Shown here in pieces: positions 34,130-64,000 of a stretch of 64,000 nucleotides of DNA. The first letter of the stretch is position 1. Each line of letters opens with the position of its first letter. The position numbers and the translations under genes were made by a program. The notes under the pieces were generated by a model. The model saw only the letters and a program-made list of their open reading frames with translations. It did not search any database and had not been told where the DNA came from. The stretch spans positions 345,382-409,381 of the forward strand of contig NZ_BMNR01000001.1 in the NCBI RefSeq assembly GCF_014646655.1, given 5' to 3'. The stretch comes from Yeosuana aromativorans (GTDB taxonomy: Bacteria > Bacteroidota > Bacteroidia > Flavobacteriales > Flavobacteriaceae).

Positions 34130-35278
34130 CTAGTTTTTAAATACTGACAAGCCCCAACTGCTCACCCATTTTAAAACAGGTATATTGTTTTCAAATTGAA
34201 TGGGTAACCAGATATAACGTCCATCAATTGCATTTTCAGGACGCCAACGGTCTGCTATAAAAATAAAACTGTTGTTACGGCCTTCAACAGGAAGCACATA
34301 GGTGCTTTGCGACCAAAAAGTCACTGCTTTTTCTTCATCGGTTCCTATACATGGATTACCTAATGATTTCCAGTTGCCCAGCATGCTGTCAGAAACTGAT
34401 AATTTTGCCGGGTTTGGCTTCCATCCAGTGAGTCCTGAGGTAAACATGTAATACTTATCATCCTTTTTAAATACGGCAGGTGCTTCATTTCGGCCTCCCG
34501 GAAACGCTCTTATATAGTCATCTGTTACGGAAAGATAGTCATCGGATAATTTTGAAATCAGTAATGTTTGATTTTCTTCTGAAGCGGTAATATGATAGGC
34601 TGTACCATCTTCATCAACAAACAGTGTCATGTCCCTAGACATTTGACCTGTTTCAAAATCACGCTTAAAATAAGCGCCATCTATCACTTTTTGTTTTTTG
34701 TTGGGATCAGAATCGTTTTCTATTATTTCTGCCTTATCAAATTGTTGCTTTGTAAAGTTGAGTGGTAGTATCCCTCCATGAAGTCTAAAACTATCCTGAT
34801 AGATATATGGCCCTGTTACATTATCGGAAACAGCAACACCAGTTAACGCAGCGCTATAGCCTTGATCTTTCAGCTCATGGTGAAACCACATCACAAATTT
34901 TTTGATCTTTTTATTATATATGACTTTTGGACGTTCTAAAATGCAACCTTTTATTAACTTACTTTTTGGGTCATTTGACATGCTCAGGGCAATACCCTCG
35001 TCCTTCCAATTATATAAATCTTTTGAACTGTATGCATGAACACCAACCATAGCCTTATTTCCAAGCTTACCTGATATTTTATGTTCTCCAAACCAATAAT
35101 ACGTTCCATCATGAAACAAAAAACCACCACCATGCGCATTGATATGGACTCCATTGTTATCAAGCCATAATTGTCCTGGTTCAAATTTGGTATAATTAGT
35201 TTGAGCCATTATAAAAACGCTGCAAAAACAGAAAAATGCTTGTGGTAGATGTTTCATTAATTGTCTTTTGGAAATCAT
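34130..35278 (-). CDS. GH43 glycosidase, exo-beta-1,3-galactanase-like (subfamily 24 type)
   Basis: The 382 residues have a signal peptide (mature start near [10 protein letters not shown]) and a five-bladed-propeller GH43 pattern. The N-terminal blade reads [20 protein letters not shown] where most GH43 enzymes carry the catalytic-base Asp. E115 (LERPKV), E265 ([10 protein letters not shown]) and Q324 ([10 protein letters not shown]) match, in order and roughly in spacing, the Glu/Glu/Gln set I recall for fungal exo-beta-1,3-galactanase of GH43_24. It would release galactose from beta-1,3-galactan chains in the periplasm. Its start overlaps the GH2 stop as ATGA, so translation is coupled. 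A nearby GH43 subfamily is possible. Confidence 0.75.
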
Positions 35279-38200
35279 TTAATTGGGATGATTTTATATG
35301 TGTATTTTAAATTTGCTGGATGAATTCTATACTTTTCATGAGCCCATGCACTTGGACTCCAACTGTTATCACCTCCAACGCCCGTTTGGCCATAATCAAT
35401 ATTAATGTTCACCAAATCACGTTGTTTAATATCTGTGGTATGTCGTTGCTTTTTGGTCATGCCTGCATCAAAATCATCGTTATATTGATGATGGGCACTA
35501 AAACTTAATAATTGCGGCCCTTCTATTTTAATGCCTTTTCCTTCATTATTTGTAAAAGTAATCCAACGCACATCGGTTTTGTAACCGTTTTCCTGTGGGC
35601 GAATGTACGGAACGTATAAATCTTCAACTTTTGCCTTGTATAATCCAACCAAAGCAGCCGTTTTTCTGTCACAGTAATTTTCTTGTGGGCCTCTGCCAAA
35701 CCAATTCACTTGGTCAAATTCATTCTTTATTATAAAATTATTTCCAAATCTTGGCAAGTGCGGTAAATCACTTTTAATATTTTCCAATTGATTGGTTACA
35801 GTGATTCCGCCAGACGCATCAATATTGTAGACCATGACGATTTGTCCATTGACTGACGGTAAATCAAAAGTTGTTTCAATATTTACAACATCAGTAACCG
35901 AACCTGTATTGCCACTGATTTCATTCCCGCTACTTGTTATTGTAACATTGGTTAGTTTTTGTTCTTGTGTGGCTTCTTTCCATTGTACCAATTTTTTTGG
36001 TGAGCCGGCCCCAAAATCATTATCTGTAACGGCACGCCAAAAATTTGGGGTCATGCCTTCAAGTAATATGTTACCATCGCCATAATCAAGGCTTGTCAAT
36101 GTTCCTTTATTGTTATCAAACTGTAATTTGAAATTGTTGTTGAAAATAGTAGTTATGGAAGCTGTTTTATTAATCGAAATGTCACCATGAATCACTGGTG
36201 TTTTTAAAACCGGTTGTCCTTTTGTTAGTTGAAATTGTTCAAAAGCTACTACATGATTTAATGGCATTAAATCGGTTTTGTACTTGTTAAGTGCATAGAT
36301 GTTTAAATGATATTCAGCATCTTTGTTTTTAAGTTCAGGCAAATCAATCTTGACGGTTTTTGTGCCGTAAGAAGGAATGTCTAAGGTTGGCAAGGAGCCC
36401 GATACTACAGCATGACCATTTTCCAATACTTCCCAAGTAAATTCAAATTCGTTTAGATTAGTGAAGTCATAGATGTTTTTAATGGATATGTCGCCTGCTT
36501 TTAAATTGGTTGGCATGAATTTGATATACTGATACACTTTTTTCACCTCATTTAGAGCAGGATGAGCTGTTCTATCAGGGTTTACAATACCATTGATACA
36601 GAAATTTTTGTCGTTTTGCAGATCAAACCCTCCCAAATCTCCACCATAGGCCCAATAGGATTGTCCAGCTTCATTTGTGGTCAAAATCCCTTGATCTACC
36701 CAGTCCCAAATAAAACCACCCTGCATGATATCATAGGCTTCAATAACATCCCAATAGTCCTGAAAATTGCCAGTGCTATTGCCCATGGCATGTGCATACT
36801 CACACTGTATTAACGGACGTGTATTATTCTGTTTGGTGTATTCTATCATCTTTTCAATTGGCCAATACATGGGCGGTTGAATATCGGTGTTGCTGTACGA
36901 TGTTGCACCTTCGTATTGCGTGGGTCGTGTTGTGTCGTGTTGTTTGAGCCAGTCATAAGTTGCAAAGAAATTTGACCCGTTTCCGGCTTCATTACCCAAC
37001 GACCAAATAACAATACAAGGATGATTTTTATCGCGTTCAAACATGCGAATGGTTCTATCTAAGTGCATGCCTTTCCATTGCGGTAAATAAGCAGGATGAA
37101 CCGCCTGTTTTGCCAAATCATTGTCCAACCCTTGATTGCTGGCACCCATACCATGGGTTTCAATATTGGCTTCATCTATCACATAAAATCCGTATTGATC
37201 ACATAATCTGTAGAAGAAAGGATTTTTTGGATAATGGCAACAACGAATAGCGTTAATATTGTTCTGTTTCATGATTTCCAGGTCCTTCTTTGTTAAATCT
37301 TCAGAAACCACATGCCCCTCTGTTTCGCTATGATCGTGCAAATTAACGCCCTTTATTAGAACAGGCTTCCCGTTGACCAAAAACTGGCTGTTTTCTATTT
37401 TGATATTTCTAAACCCAACTTTTACTGCAGTTGATTCTCCGTTGCAATTAATCAAGAGTTTATATAGTTTGGGTTGCTCGGCATTCCATGACTTTACATG
37501 AGGAATGATTCTGCTGAAATCAATATCGTTTTTTCCTGTCTTTAAATTGACTTGTTTAGCTTCAGAATAGACCTCGGTATTGCCATCCATGAGTGAAATC
37601 TCAATTGTTTTTTTTGCCTTGGATTTAGAATTGTTTTCTACTTCTAAAGCCATTTTAAAAACCCCATCTTGATAATCGTTTTGTAAATCAGAAGTGACCC
37701 TAAAATCCCGAATAGTGACTTTGTTTGTTGCATAGAGGTAAACATCACGCTCAATACCGCTCAACCTCCAAAAATCCTGGTCTTCCATATAACTGGCGTC
37801 TGACCAGCGCAACACTTGAACAGATATGGTGTTTTTCCCTTTTTTAAGGTGGTCCGTGATTTTAAATTCAGCTGGTGTTTTGCTGCCCTCATTGTAGCCT
37901 ACAAAAGCGCCATTGATCCAAACATACATGGCACCACTCACTCCTGCAAAATGCAAATAGATATCTTTGCCGTCCCAATCTTGTGGGATTTCAAAATCTC
38001 TTTTATAGCTGCCATTATTGTTTATGTTATGTGGAATGTAAGGTGGATTGGCAGGAAACATGTATTTTATGTTGGTATACACTGGAATCCCAAAACCTTT
38101 CATTTCCCAATTAGAAGGCACTTCAATTGTGTTCCAGCCTTTTAAACTAAAATCATCTTTATAAAAATCAACTGGTCTTGCCTGCACACTATCGGCATAA

Positions 38201-38457
38201 TAAAAATGCCAGGTGCCATTTAAGGATTTGTATAATGGTGAGGCTTCCCAACTGTCGTTTTTTAATGCTGATCCTTTATCAGTATATCTATAAAAAGTAG
38301 CTGTGGGTTCTTCCCTGTTTATTTGAAATATCTCAGGATTTTCCCATTCTGGATTTTTCCATGTTTCTGCTTTATAAACTGGTTTTTGTGCCTGTGCCTT
38401 TTGAGACGAAAAAACTGAAACTAACAACACTGAAACGATTAGGTGTTTTATATTCAT
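35275..38457 (-). CDS. GH2 beta-galactosidase, LacZ-like
   Basis: The 1060-residue exported protein (signal ending AQAQ) has the LacZ five-domain layout: sugar-binding jelly roll (about 50-245), Ig-like domains, TIM barrel (about 355-650) and a C-terminal beta-galactosidase small-chain domain (about 775-1055). The acid/base is E490 in [10 protein letters not shown] and the nucleophile is E553 in [13 protein letters not shown]. It should remove terminal beta-linked galactose from oligosaccharides in the periplasm. It is followed directly, with a 4-bp overlap, by the GH43 gene. Confidence 0.93.
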
Positions 38458-63819: not shown

Positions 63820-63832
63820 TAATTACTGAATC

Positions 63833-64000
63833 ATGAATTATCCCAATAAAAAAGTACTGTTTGGTTTTGCTTTACTCATTATGGGTTTACAACATATCAT
63901 CTGCCAAACGCTACAGGACAAACCCAATGTTTTATTTATTATTTGCGATGATTTAAATGATTATGAAGGTGCTTTTGGTGGGCATCCACAAGCCAAAACA
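63833..64000 (+). CDS. Sulfatase, N-terminal part only (cut by window end)
   Basis: The first 56 residues are visible. There is a signal peptide ([18 protein letters not shown]), then the sulfatase opening [20 protein letters not shown]. The DDLND form is typical of iduronate-2-sulfatase-like S1 enzymes and differs from the DDLG of the other sulfatases here. The formylglycine motif lies beyond the window. It starts 13 bp after the beta-helix gene in the same operon. Confidence 0.8.

Follow-up and report, generated by a model that had tools for sequence, protein, structure and literature searches.

The stretch of DNA analyzed here, referred to as the window, comprises 64 kb of the 3.76-Mb genome of Yeosuana aromativorans (G000:C1:345382-409381) and contains a polysaccharide utilization locus whose likely target glycan is the subject of this study. 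Open frames and Pfam matches define 16 complete genes at 34130-63819, which are arranged in two arms around a single hybrid two-component system (HTCS) regulator. From the HTCS outward, the minus arm carries S4, S3, an SGNH hydrolase, S2, S1, GH2b, GH2a and GH43, tightly packed from S4 to GH43 with intergenic gaps of -38 to +43 bases; on the plus side the HTCS is followed by SusC, SusD, GH128, X, S5, GH16 and a beta-helix protein, and then by S6. Here, S1 to S6 name six genes of sulfatase family S1, and GH stands for glycoside hydrolase. A SusC/SusD pair, linked degradative enzymes and a regulator occur together, as is characteristic for polysaccharide utilization loci of Bacteroidota, and the Pfam matches of the locus enzymes exceed the curated cut-offs. 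The genes and the two arms diverging from the HTCS, as described in an earlier reading of the same letters without database searches (the sequence-only reading), are all present as open frames with Pfam matches, and the sugar symporter and galactose genes that it had placed next to the locus were found as well. The features are as follows, with CBM for carbohydrate-binding module, GalNAc for N-acetylgalactosamine and T9SS for type IX secretion system:

34130..35278, minus strand: GH43, predicted exo-beta-1,3-galactanase of the subfamily 24 type, GH43_24 (Pfam and solved-chain matches; E115, E265, Q324)
35275..38457, minus strand: GH2a, predicted LacZ-type beta-galactosidase (Pfam; NCBIfam Bga2A, 1044 bits, cut-off 999)
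38501..40972, minus strand: GH2b, predicted GalB-type beta-galactosidase (NCBIfam GalB, 927 bits, cut-off 900)
40984..42579, minus strand: sulfatase S1, S1_16-like, galactose/GalNAc 4-sulfate type (nearest chains 6ust, 9fo1)
42586..44013, minus strand: sulfatase S2, S1_20-like, 3-sulfate galactose type (nearest chains 7ana, 7an1, which we take to be S1_20 enzymes)
44010..44669, minus strand: SGNH/GDSL hydrolase, possible esterase (Pfam Lipase_GDSL_2, 1.7e-10)
44684..46288, minus strand: sulfatase S3, S1_15 type, galactose/GalNAc 6-sulfate (7ozc, 2.4e-197; 9bas and 9bau named S1_15)
46251..47684, minus strand: sulfatase S4, S1_19 type, galactose 4-sulfate (6prm, 4e-105; 9hh3, family S1-19)
47982..51986, plus strand: HTCS regulator (Pfam propeller, Y_Y_Y, HisKA, HATPase, response regulator and AraC domains)
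52125..55205, plus strand: SusC-like TonB-dependent transporter (Pfam plug and CarboxypepD_reg; homologues in relatives 72-86% identical)
55210..56757, plus strand: SusD-like lipoprotein (Pfam)
56774..58135, plus strand: GH128 protein with CBM4_9-like domain and lipobox-like start (PF11790, 2.7e-56; predicted catalytic E119 and E209)
58214-59038, plus strand: X, T9SS-secreted protein of 274 aa, absent from the sequence-only reading (T9SS tail as only Pfam match)
59165..60610, plus strand: sulfatase S5, S1_19 type, galactose 4-sulfate (6prm, 1.2e-112)
60629..62161, plus strand: accessory gene for a protein of CBM4_9, GH16 and T9SS tail (Pfam GH16, 1.7e-12; E299-D301-E304)
62173..63819, plus strand: GH136-like right-handed beta-helix protein (Pfam beta-helix, 8.5e-11; W290, D310, D317)
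63833..64000, plus strand: start of sulfatase S6, which ends at 65410 in window numbering (complete at L009:6214-7791)
29116..30768, minus strand: SSF sodium/sugar symporter beside the locus (Pfam SSF, 6.3e-68)
30991-31887, plus strand: galM (Pfam)
31909-33057, plus strand: galK (Pfam)
33081-34100, plus strand: galT (NCBIfam)

The genes galM-galK-galT are convergent with GH43, and the two ends are 29 bases apart.

The GH43 protein is, with good support, predicted to act on beta-1,3-galactan as an exo-enzyme of subfamily 24. Its catalytic domain is similar to those of characterized exo-beta-1,3-galactanases; the top solved chain was 6eug (1.9e-121 over residues 32-376), which we take to be BT3683, and further matches were obtained with 7bys, 7byv and 7byx, named galactan 1,3-beta-galactosidase, and with 5flw, named exo-beta-1,3-galactanase. 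Members of subfamily 24 lack the Asp base and possess a Gln instead, with one Glu recognizing O4 and another one serving as the acid (PMC7939473). All three hallmark residues are found in the window protein (E115, E265 and Q324), and the Glu and Gln of 6eug that align to E115 and Q324 are 210 residues apart, matching the E367/Q577 spacing of BT3683 (PMC7939473). The exo-beta-1,3-galactanase features noticed in the sequence-only reading were thus borne out by chain matches and residues alike, and its two distinct GH2 enzymes could be assigned to the LacZ and GalB types by NCBIfam.

The sulfatases also point to galactose. As had been read from the letters, five of them are complete in the window; the partial sixth is complete in the genome with 525 aa. 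The motif C-x-P-S-R is present in 6/6 proteins and, together with the sulfatase domain, agrees with the definition of family S1 (sulfatase domain plus C/S-x-P-x-R). Judged from the subfamily labels of their nearest solved chains, S1 to S5 (5/6 sulfatases) resemble galactose-sulfate enzymes, three of the 4-sulfate, one of the 6-sulfate and one of the 3-sulfate type. S1 is nearest to 6ust, named N-acetylgalactosamine 6-sulfate sulfatase, and next to 9fo1, a kappa-carrageenan sulfatase of S1_16. Both S4 and S5, which share 45% identity, match the exo-4S-kappa carrageenan sulfatase 6prm, and the S1_19 entries rank below. The substrates listed are 6-O-sulfated Gal/GalNAc for S1_15, 4-O-sulfated Gal/GalNAc for S1_16 and mostly 3-O-sulfated Gal for S1_20, including BT_1636 with 3-O-sulfated Gal (PMC12834350), and galactose-6-sulfate and galactose-4-sulfate activities are named among subfamilies including these sulfatase types (PMC10880615).

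The similarity of S4 and S5 to kappa- and iota-carrageenan sulfatases and of S1 to a kappa-carrageenan S1_16 enzyme might also indicate a red-algal galactan of the carrageenan or agar type, as might the weak match of GH16 to the kappa-carrageenase model (2.6e-11), which with 43 bits stays far below the cut-off of 350 and does not place GH16 in that subfamily. Such a target is nevertheless very unlikely, because the whole genome gave no match for GH127 and no anhydrogalactose enzyme was found among the 16 locus genes and S6 (all otherwise assigned except the 274-aa X; for GH117 and GH129, no search of the whole genome was made), and because GH43_24 would have no run of beta-1,3-galactan as substrate. 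Agar or carrageenan was dropped as target, since no fitting marker was found; in this respect the sequence-only reading, which had seen no such marker, holds for the locus genes and has been extended to the entire genome for GH127.

Collectively, the locus is probably dedicated to the utilization of a sulfated galactan with a backbone of beta-1,3-linked D-galactose. This is regarded as the best interpretation because of the GH43_24 hallmarks, the galactose-type sulfatases, the galMKT genes continuing the arm of a genus mate (G006) and a separate locus (L164), in which SusC/SusD, GH43_24 and sulfatases stand together. To this extent, the sulfated beta-1,3-linked galactan suggested by the sequence-only reading is retained; its green-algal example gained no direct support, and the glycan may come from a green alga, a seagrass or a microalga. 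Several observations speak against it. The top chain of GH43, 6eug, carries the file name 'Beta-glucanase', GH43 was found in only two (G006, G075) of the five relatives whose left arm can be read, and the only GH43_24 found in Jejuia (G326) is located on another contig. The sulfatase subfamilies were derived only from the solved chains closest to each protein and the labels of these chains. Finally, the glucanase active site of the window GH128 is intact in its catalytic and -1/-2 subsite residues, and the best solved matches of GH16 are laminarinases, at 1e-12 to 1e-13. A grouping of the GH128 and GH16 proteins with laminarinases, together with action on glucan only, had been named beforehand as the outcome that would contradict a galactan target, and these last two findings correspond to it in part.

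The locus type is shared by relatives, of which most named ones are Flavobacteriaceae. GH128 was detected at 1e-30 or better in 8/397 genomes of the family (own included), and a scan of genome contigs with GH128 yielded 24 loci. Besides the window, eight loci are readable from SusD to the beta-helix protein: G006 (contig of L062, same genus), G212 (L064), G021 (L065, a metagenome-assembled genome of Mangrovimonas), G326 (L066, Jejuia pallidilutea), G224, G075, L063 and L067 (Aestuariivivens sediminis). A right arm of SusC-SusD, GH128, X, the S1_19-type S5 and the beta-helix protein is conserved in all eight, and GH16 is part of it in two (G212, G021). The left arm is readable in five relatives (G006, G212, G326, G224, G075); S4, S3 and GH2a are present in 5/5, S2 in 3/5, S1 and GH2b in 2/5 each and the SGNH hydrolase in 1/5. 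In G006, the arm runs in one direction as S4-S3-S2-S1-GH2b-(302 aa)-GH2a-GH43-galM-galK-galT; hence, galactose catabolism continues the arm, since galMKT runs on from GH43. The galMKT genes are inverted in the window relative to G006, and an SSF symporter was not seen beside the locus of this genus mate. Two loci of Balneolaceae (L068, L069) share SusC, SusD, GH128 and an S3-like gene, and L068 additionally matches S1, S2, S5 and GH2a.

The minus arms of Jejuia and G075 both encode another GH128 protein after S3; in G075, it is about 10 kb from GH43, which is adjoined there by a GH16-like protein just below the Pfam cut-off. The arm of G075 also includes a protein of CBM4_9 and an alpha-L-fucosidase-family domain (L134:15678-17606) and an esterase-like gene; therefore, side chains of the target may differ between species. 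A protein of 280 aa that matches no Pfam family is likewise encoded in the minus arm of this genome (L054:7246-8088).

Genes of the locus type were also found together in separate loci. In L164 (G663, another order), SusC (59%), SusD (54%), GH43_24, an S4-like (41%) and an S3-like gene (66%) stand side by side, and a large GH128 protein is encoded about 12 kb upstream of GH43. The 2150-aa GH128 protein of G508 ends 60 bases ahead of GH43_24, beside an S1-like sulfatase, and in G133, where 34 kb gave no sulfatase match, about 1 kb separates GH43_24 from a GH128 protein of 1510 aa. Thus, four further genomes (G075, G133, G663, G508), two of them from another order, encode GH128 no more than 12 kb away from GH43_24. 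GH2a is likewise found within 3 kb of GH43_24 elsewhere, e.g. in L133, L138, L172 and L193, and in G265 sulfatases accompany GH16, GH2a and GH43_24 in a locus that lacks GH128. Flammeovirga kamogawensis p1 has S1, SusC, SusD, GH128, GH2b and GH16 together (33-56% identity), with no GH43 in 40.7 kb; no GH43 was found in the stretches of G212 and G224 either. Besides the window's, 31 GH43_24 neighbourhoods were inspected, mostly over 12-20 kb and in G075, G663, G133, G508 and G265 over 32-59 kb, the longer stretches being biased, as three of these five were partly chosen because GH128 was already known nearby. GH128 was present in 2/31 plain 20-kb neighbourhoods (G133, G508), in 4/31 with the longer stretches, and sulfatase genes in 8/31; the association of GH128 with sulfatases by Fisher test (p 0.043) is biased by the choice of stretches and is not relied on. 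In the family sample, three of the seven GH128 genomes (own excluded) also possess GH43_24 (hypergeometric p 0.0017), in one locus only in G075 and on different contigs in G326 and G384, and in the class sample two of six do so (p 0.016), both within 12 kb.

GH128 is known as a beta-1,3-glucanase family. The window protein belongs to it by the PF11790 domain, the catalytic pair E119/E209 and the H180/Y182 pair. In the GH128 curdlanase CBM6E, the contact and catalytic residues are N167, E168, Q174, H245, Y247, E272, F310, W141 and W117 (PMC10956234), to which N118, E119, Q125, H180, Y182, E209, F253, W89 and W66/W70 correspond in the window protein according to an alignment with 6uaq and spacing. 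It therefore looks like a competent enzyme, because all compared active-site residues are present, as in the beta-1,3-glucanases AmGH128_I (6uaq) and CBM6E (PMC10956234), whose fold family it shares. Unlike these, it is found in sulfatase/galactan loci and is equipped with a CBM4_9-like domain. The residues do not indicate a switch from glucan to galactan, and it is solely the gene neighbourhood that would argue for galactan as its substrate. A marine survey indeed calls GH128 a laminarinase (PMC11573768), and together with the preserved subsite residues and the laminarinase matches of GH16 this would suit a mixed or partly glucan target, with GH128 and GH16 as true beta-1,3-glucanases clearing laminarin- or callose-like beta-1,3-glucan that accompanies a sulfated galactan, and only the other genes acting on the galactan. 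Such a division is rather improbable given that GH128 is retained in 8/8 relatives with a readable right arm, that separate loci (G133, G508, G663) also link it to GH43_24 and that the locus genes include no further enzymes for glucan, e.g. of GH3, GH17 or GH30.

In a tree of 40 GH128 domains, built with a quick method and with long branches flagged, the window protein falls into a clade of ten rows (SH-aLRT support 99) made up solely of rows labelled as the same locus type; the L081 row, labelled syntenic beforehand, is placed outside this well-supported clade. Sister rows come from loci L070-L076, in which BLAST with the window's proteins gave no sulfatase or galactan gene; six proteins from these loci had no such match by Pfam. 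A second clade (SH-aLRT 99) unites five large proteins (L054:1689-3992, L053:13119-14984, L056:1823-3715, L197:11888-15790 and L170:3313-9765), all in sulfatase loci, while the large G133 protein lies outside on a long branch. In the five, at least about 275 residues precede the GH128 domain and the loop behind the nucleophile is shortened; for three of them, GH43_24 is no more than 12 kb away.

GH16, which the sequence-only reading had counted among the galactan enzymes of the locus, is not part of its core: it was abandoned as key enzyme and is regarded as accessory because it was found in only 2/8 relatives with a readable right arm. Its structure model reached a pLDDT of 57. Seven non-syntenic relatives share 49-58% identity, of which two (G265, G008) are near sulfatase, GH2 or GH43 genes; the other five have no such neighbour by BLAST with the window's proteins. 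Among annotated plasmid relatives, six records carry generic names or none, and one led to the similar Flammeovirga locus. In G006, the place of GH16 is taken by a further beta-helix protein (L204:3811-5289) with 25% identity to that of the window, as if one had been exchanged for the other. X is probably a carbohydrate-binding protein, as its homologues from other loci resemble the CBM part of GH16 (matches at 47-54%). A CBM4_9 domain is recognized by Pfam in both the GH128 and the GH16 protein; their CBM parts in the window have no similarity by BLAST at 1e-5, and the shared module is seen via Pfam and homologues. It looks like one binding module has spread within this locus type.

The beta-helix protein is related to GH136 lacto-N-biosidases such as LnbX in sequence and fold, a relationship that the sequence-only reading had not noticed. 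With phmmer against solved chains it matched 6kqs at 2.6e-13, chiefly in the N-terminal part, and lacto-N-biosidases were the only hits at 1e-4 or better (7v6m appears under two names in the sequence and fold matches, as a fibronectin type III protein and as lacto-N-biosidase TnX). The predicted model (pLDDT 78) resembles several beta-helix families with Z of 24-31, alginate epimerases on top; among the 50 matches listed, the lacto-N-biosidase entries 5gqc, 7v6m, 7v6i, 6kqs and 6kqt reach Z of 24.6-29.8 over 355-433 residues with 25-26% identity, compared to 8-17% for the others. In ErLnb136, galactose stacks on W548 and the catalytic residues are D568 and D575 (PMC7335108). The same W-(20)-D-(7)-D spacing is seen for W290, D310 and D317, a correspondence by spacing and not by residue-by-residue alignment to a solved chain; across 11 sequences, the D310/D317 pair does not vary and W290 hardly does. 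The helical partner domain necessary for GH136 activity (PMC7335108) is absent from the protein, which consists of signal peptide and beta-helix only, with a separate partner not searched for; hence, it is named GH136-like and not a GH136 member. The window protein thus shares with LnbX (5gqc) and ErLnb136 (6kqs) the beta-helix fold, at 25-26% identity, and the spacing of the galactose-stacking Trp, acid/base and nucleophile; in contrast to them, it is without N-terminal helical domain, and no N-acetylglucosamine enzymes accompany it in its predicted sulfated-galactan locus. GH136 enzymes cut a beta-1,3 linkage and release Gal-beta-1,3-GlcNAc, so that Gal-beta-1,3-Gal suggests itself as the product here, and the protein is put forward by analogy as a candidate beta-1,3-galactobiosidase.

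The lacto-N-biosidase fold might also be expected for a sulfated glycan of animal origin, e.g. keratan sulfate or a mucin O-glycan, and sulfatases of S1_15, S1_16, S1_19 and S1_20 are found in mucin degraders (PMC12834350). We consider this target highly improbable, because the 16 locus genes include no hexosaminidase, sialidase or fucosidase, with the caveat of the fucosidase-family gene in the arm of G075, and because GH43_24 and galMKT indicate galactose.

For the favored sulfated beta-1,3-galactan, the following pathway can be proposed. The HTCS would sense an oligosaccharide and switch on both arms. Outside the cell, the lipoprotein GH128, joined by the T9SS-secreted GH16 where present, may cut the chain, which would be held by CBM4_9-like modules and SusD, and SusC would import the oligosaccharides. 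The sulfatases are expected to take 4-O-, 6-O- and 3-O-sulfate off galactose (S1_19 type twice, S1_16-like, S1_15 type, S1_20-like); GH43_24 would then remove single galactoses from the desulfated backbone and the GH136-like protein would release the disaccharide Gal-beta-1,3-Gal. The two GH2 enzymes might finish side chains and short pieces, and galMKT would metabolize the galactose. In this scheme, we infer the substrate, the cell location, the order of steps and the specificities of GH128, GH16 and the GH136-like protein. That the core depolymerases are a GH128 cutting beta-1,3-galactan instead of glucan and a GH136-like beta-1,3-galactobiosidase is a tentative suggestion, with the odds somewhat against it. 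We know of neither galactan activity in GH128 nor beta-1,3-galactobiosidase activity in GH136, and titles and abstracts of the open-access literature searched reported no galactan activity of either.

Regarding its surroundings, no RNA families or tRNAs were found within the 64-kb window. Two tandem genes at 17737-22406, for 1068 and 481 aa, resemble a SusC/SusD pair in size and order. Beyond S6, a separate locus on the other strand (L009:8358-19959 and onward) contains GH32, a pfkB kinase, a sugar transporter, a six-hairpin glycosidase and its own SusD-like gene, and probably targets fructan. The whole genome has 18 S1-family sulfatase matches, among them two more clusters at G000:C1:141998-153717 (six) and G000:C4:427193-449635 (four).

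Few degradation pathways have been assigned for sulfated beta-1,3-galactans and sulfated arabinogalactan proteins (AGPs) of marine plants and algae. Counting the window, nine Bacteroidota genomes in which the right arm can be read share the locus type described here, and related loci exist in Balneolaceae; given this spread, SusC/SusD together with GH128 and the GH136-like protein could mark the use of such glycans. The locus predicts new specificities for GH128 and GH136-like proteins; both families are known from other sugars and may have acquired a new use here.

Carrageenan utilization loci of marine bacteria carry S1_19 sulfatases, GH16 and GH2, and so does the window locus; it differs from them in that its genome is without GH127 and that GH43_24, GH128 and the GH136-like protein are found in the locus instead. 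The closest published system that we found is that of Bacteroides plebeius for sulfated AGP, in which PUL13, with BpS1_8 and BpS1-14, and the enzyme BpGH43_24 act on sulfated AGP including that of the green alga Codium fragile, and desulfation precedes GH43_24 (PMC8406133). Both systems combine sulfatases and a GH43_24 exo-beta-1,3-galactanase for a sulfated glycan with a beta-1,3-galactan backbone, here as predicted from the genes alone. They differ in the two sulfatases of B. plebeius (S1_8, S1_14) compared to six of other types in the window locus, and in GH16, GH128 and the GH136-like protein, which are not mentioned for B. plebeius in the accessible part of that report (PMC8406133).

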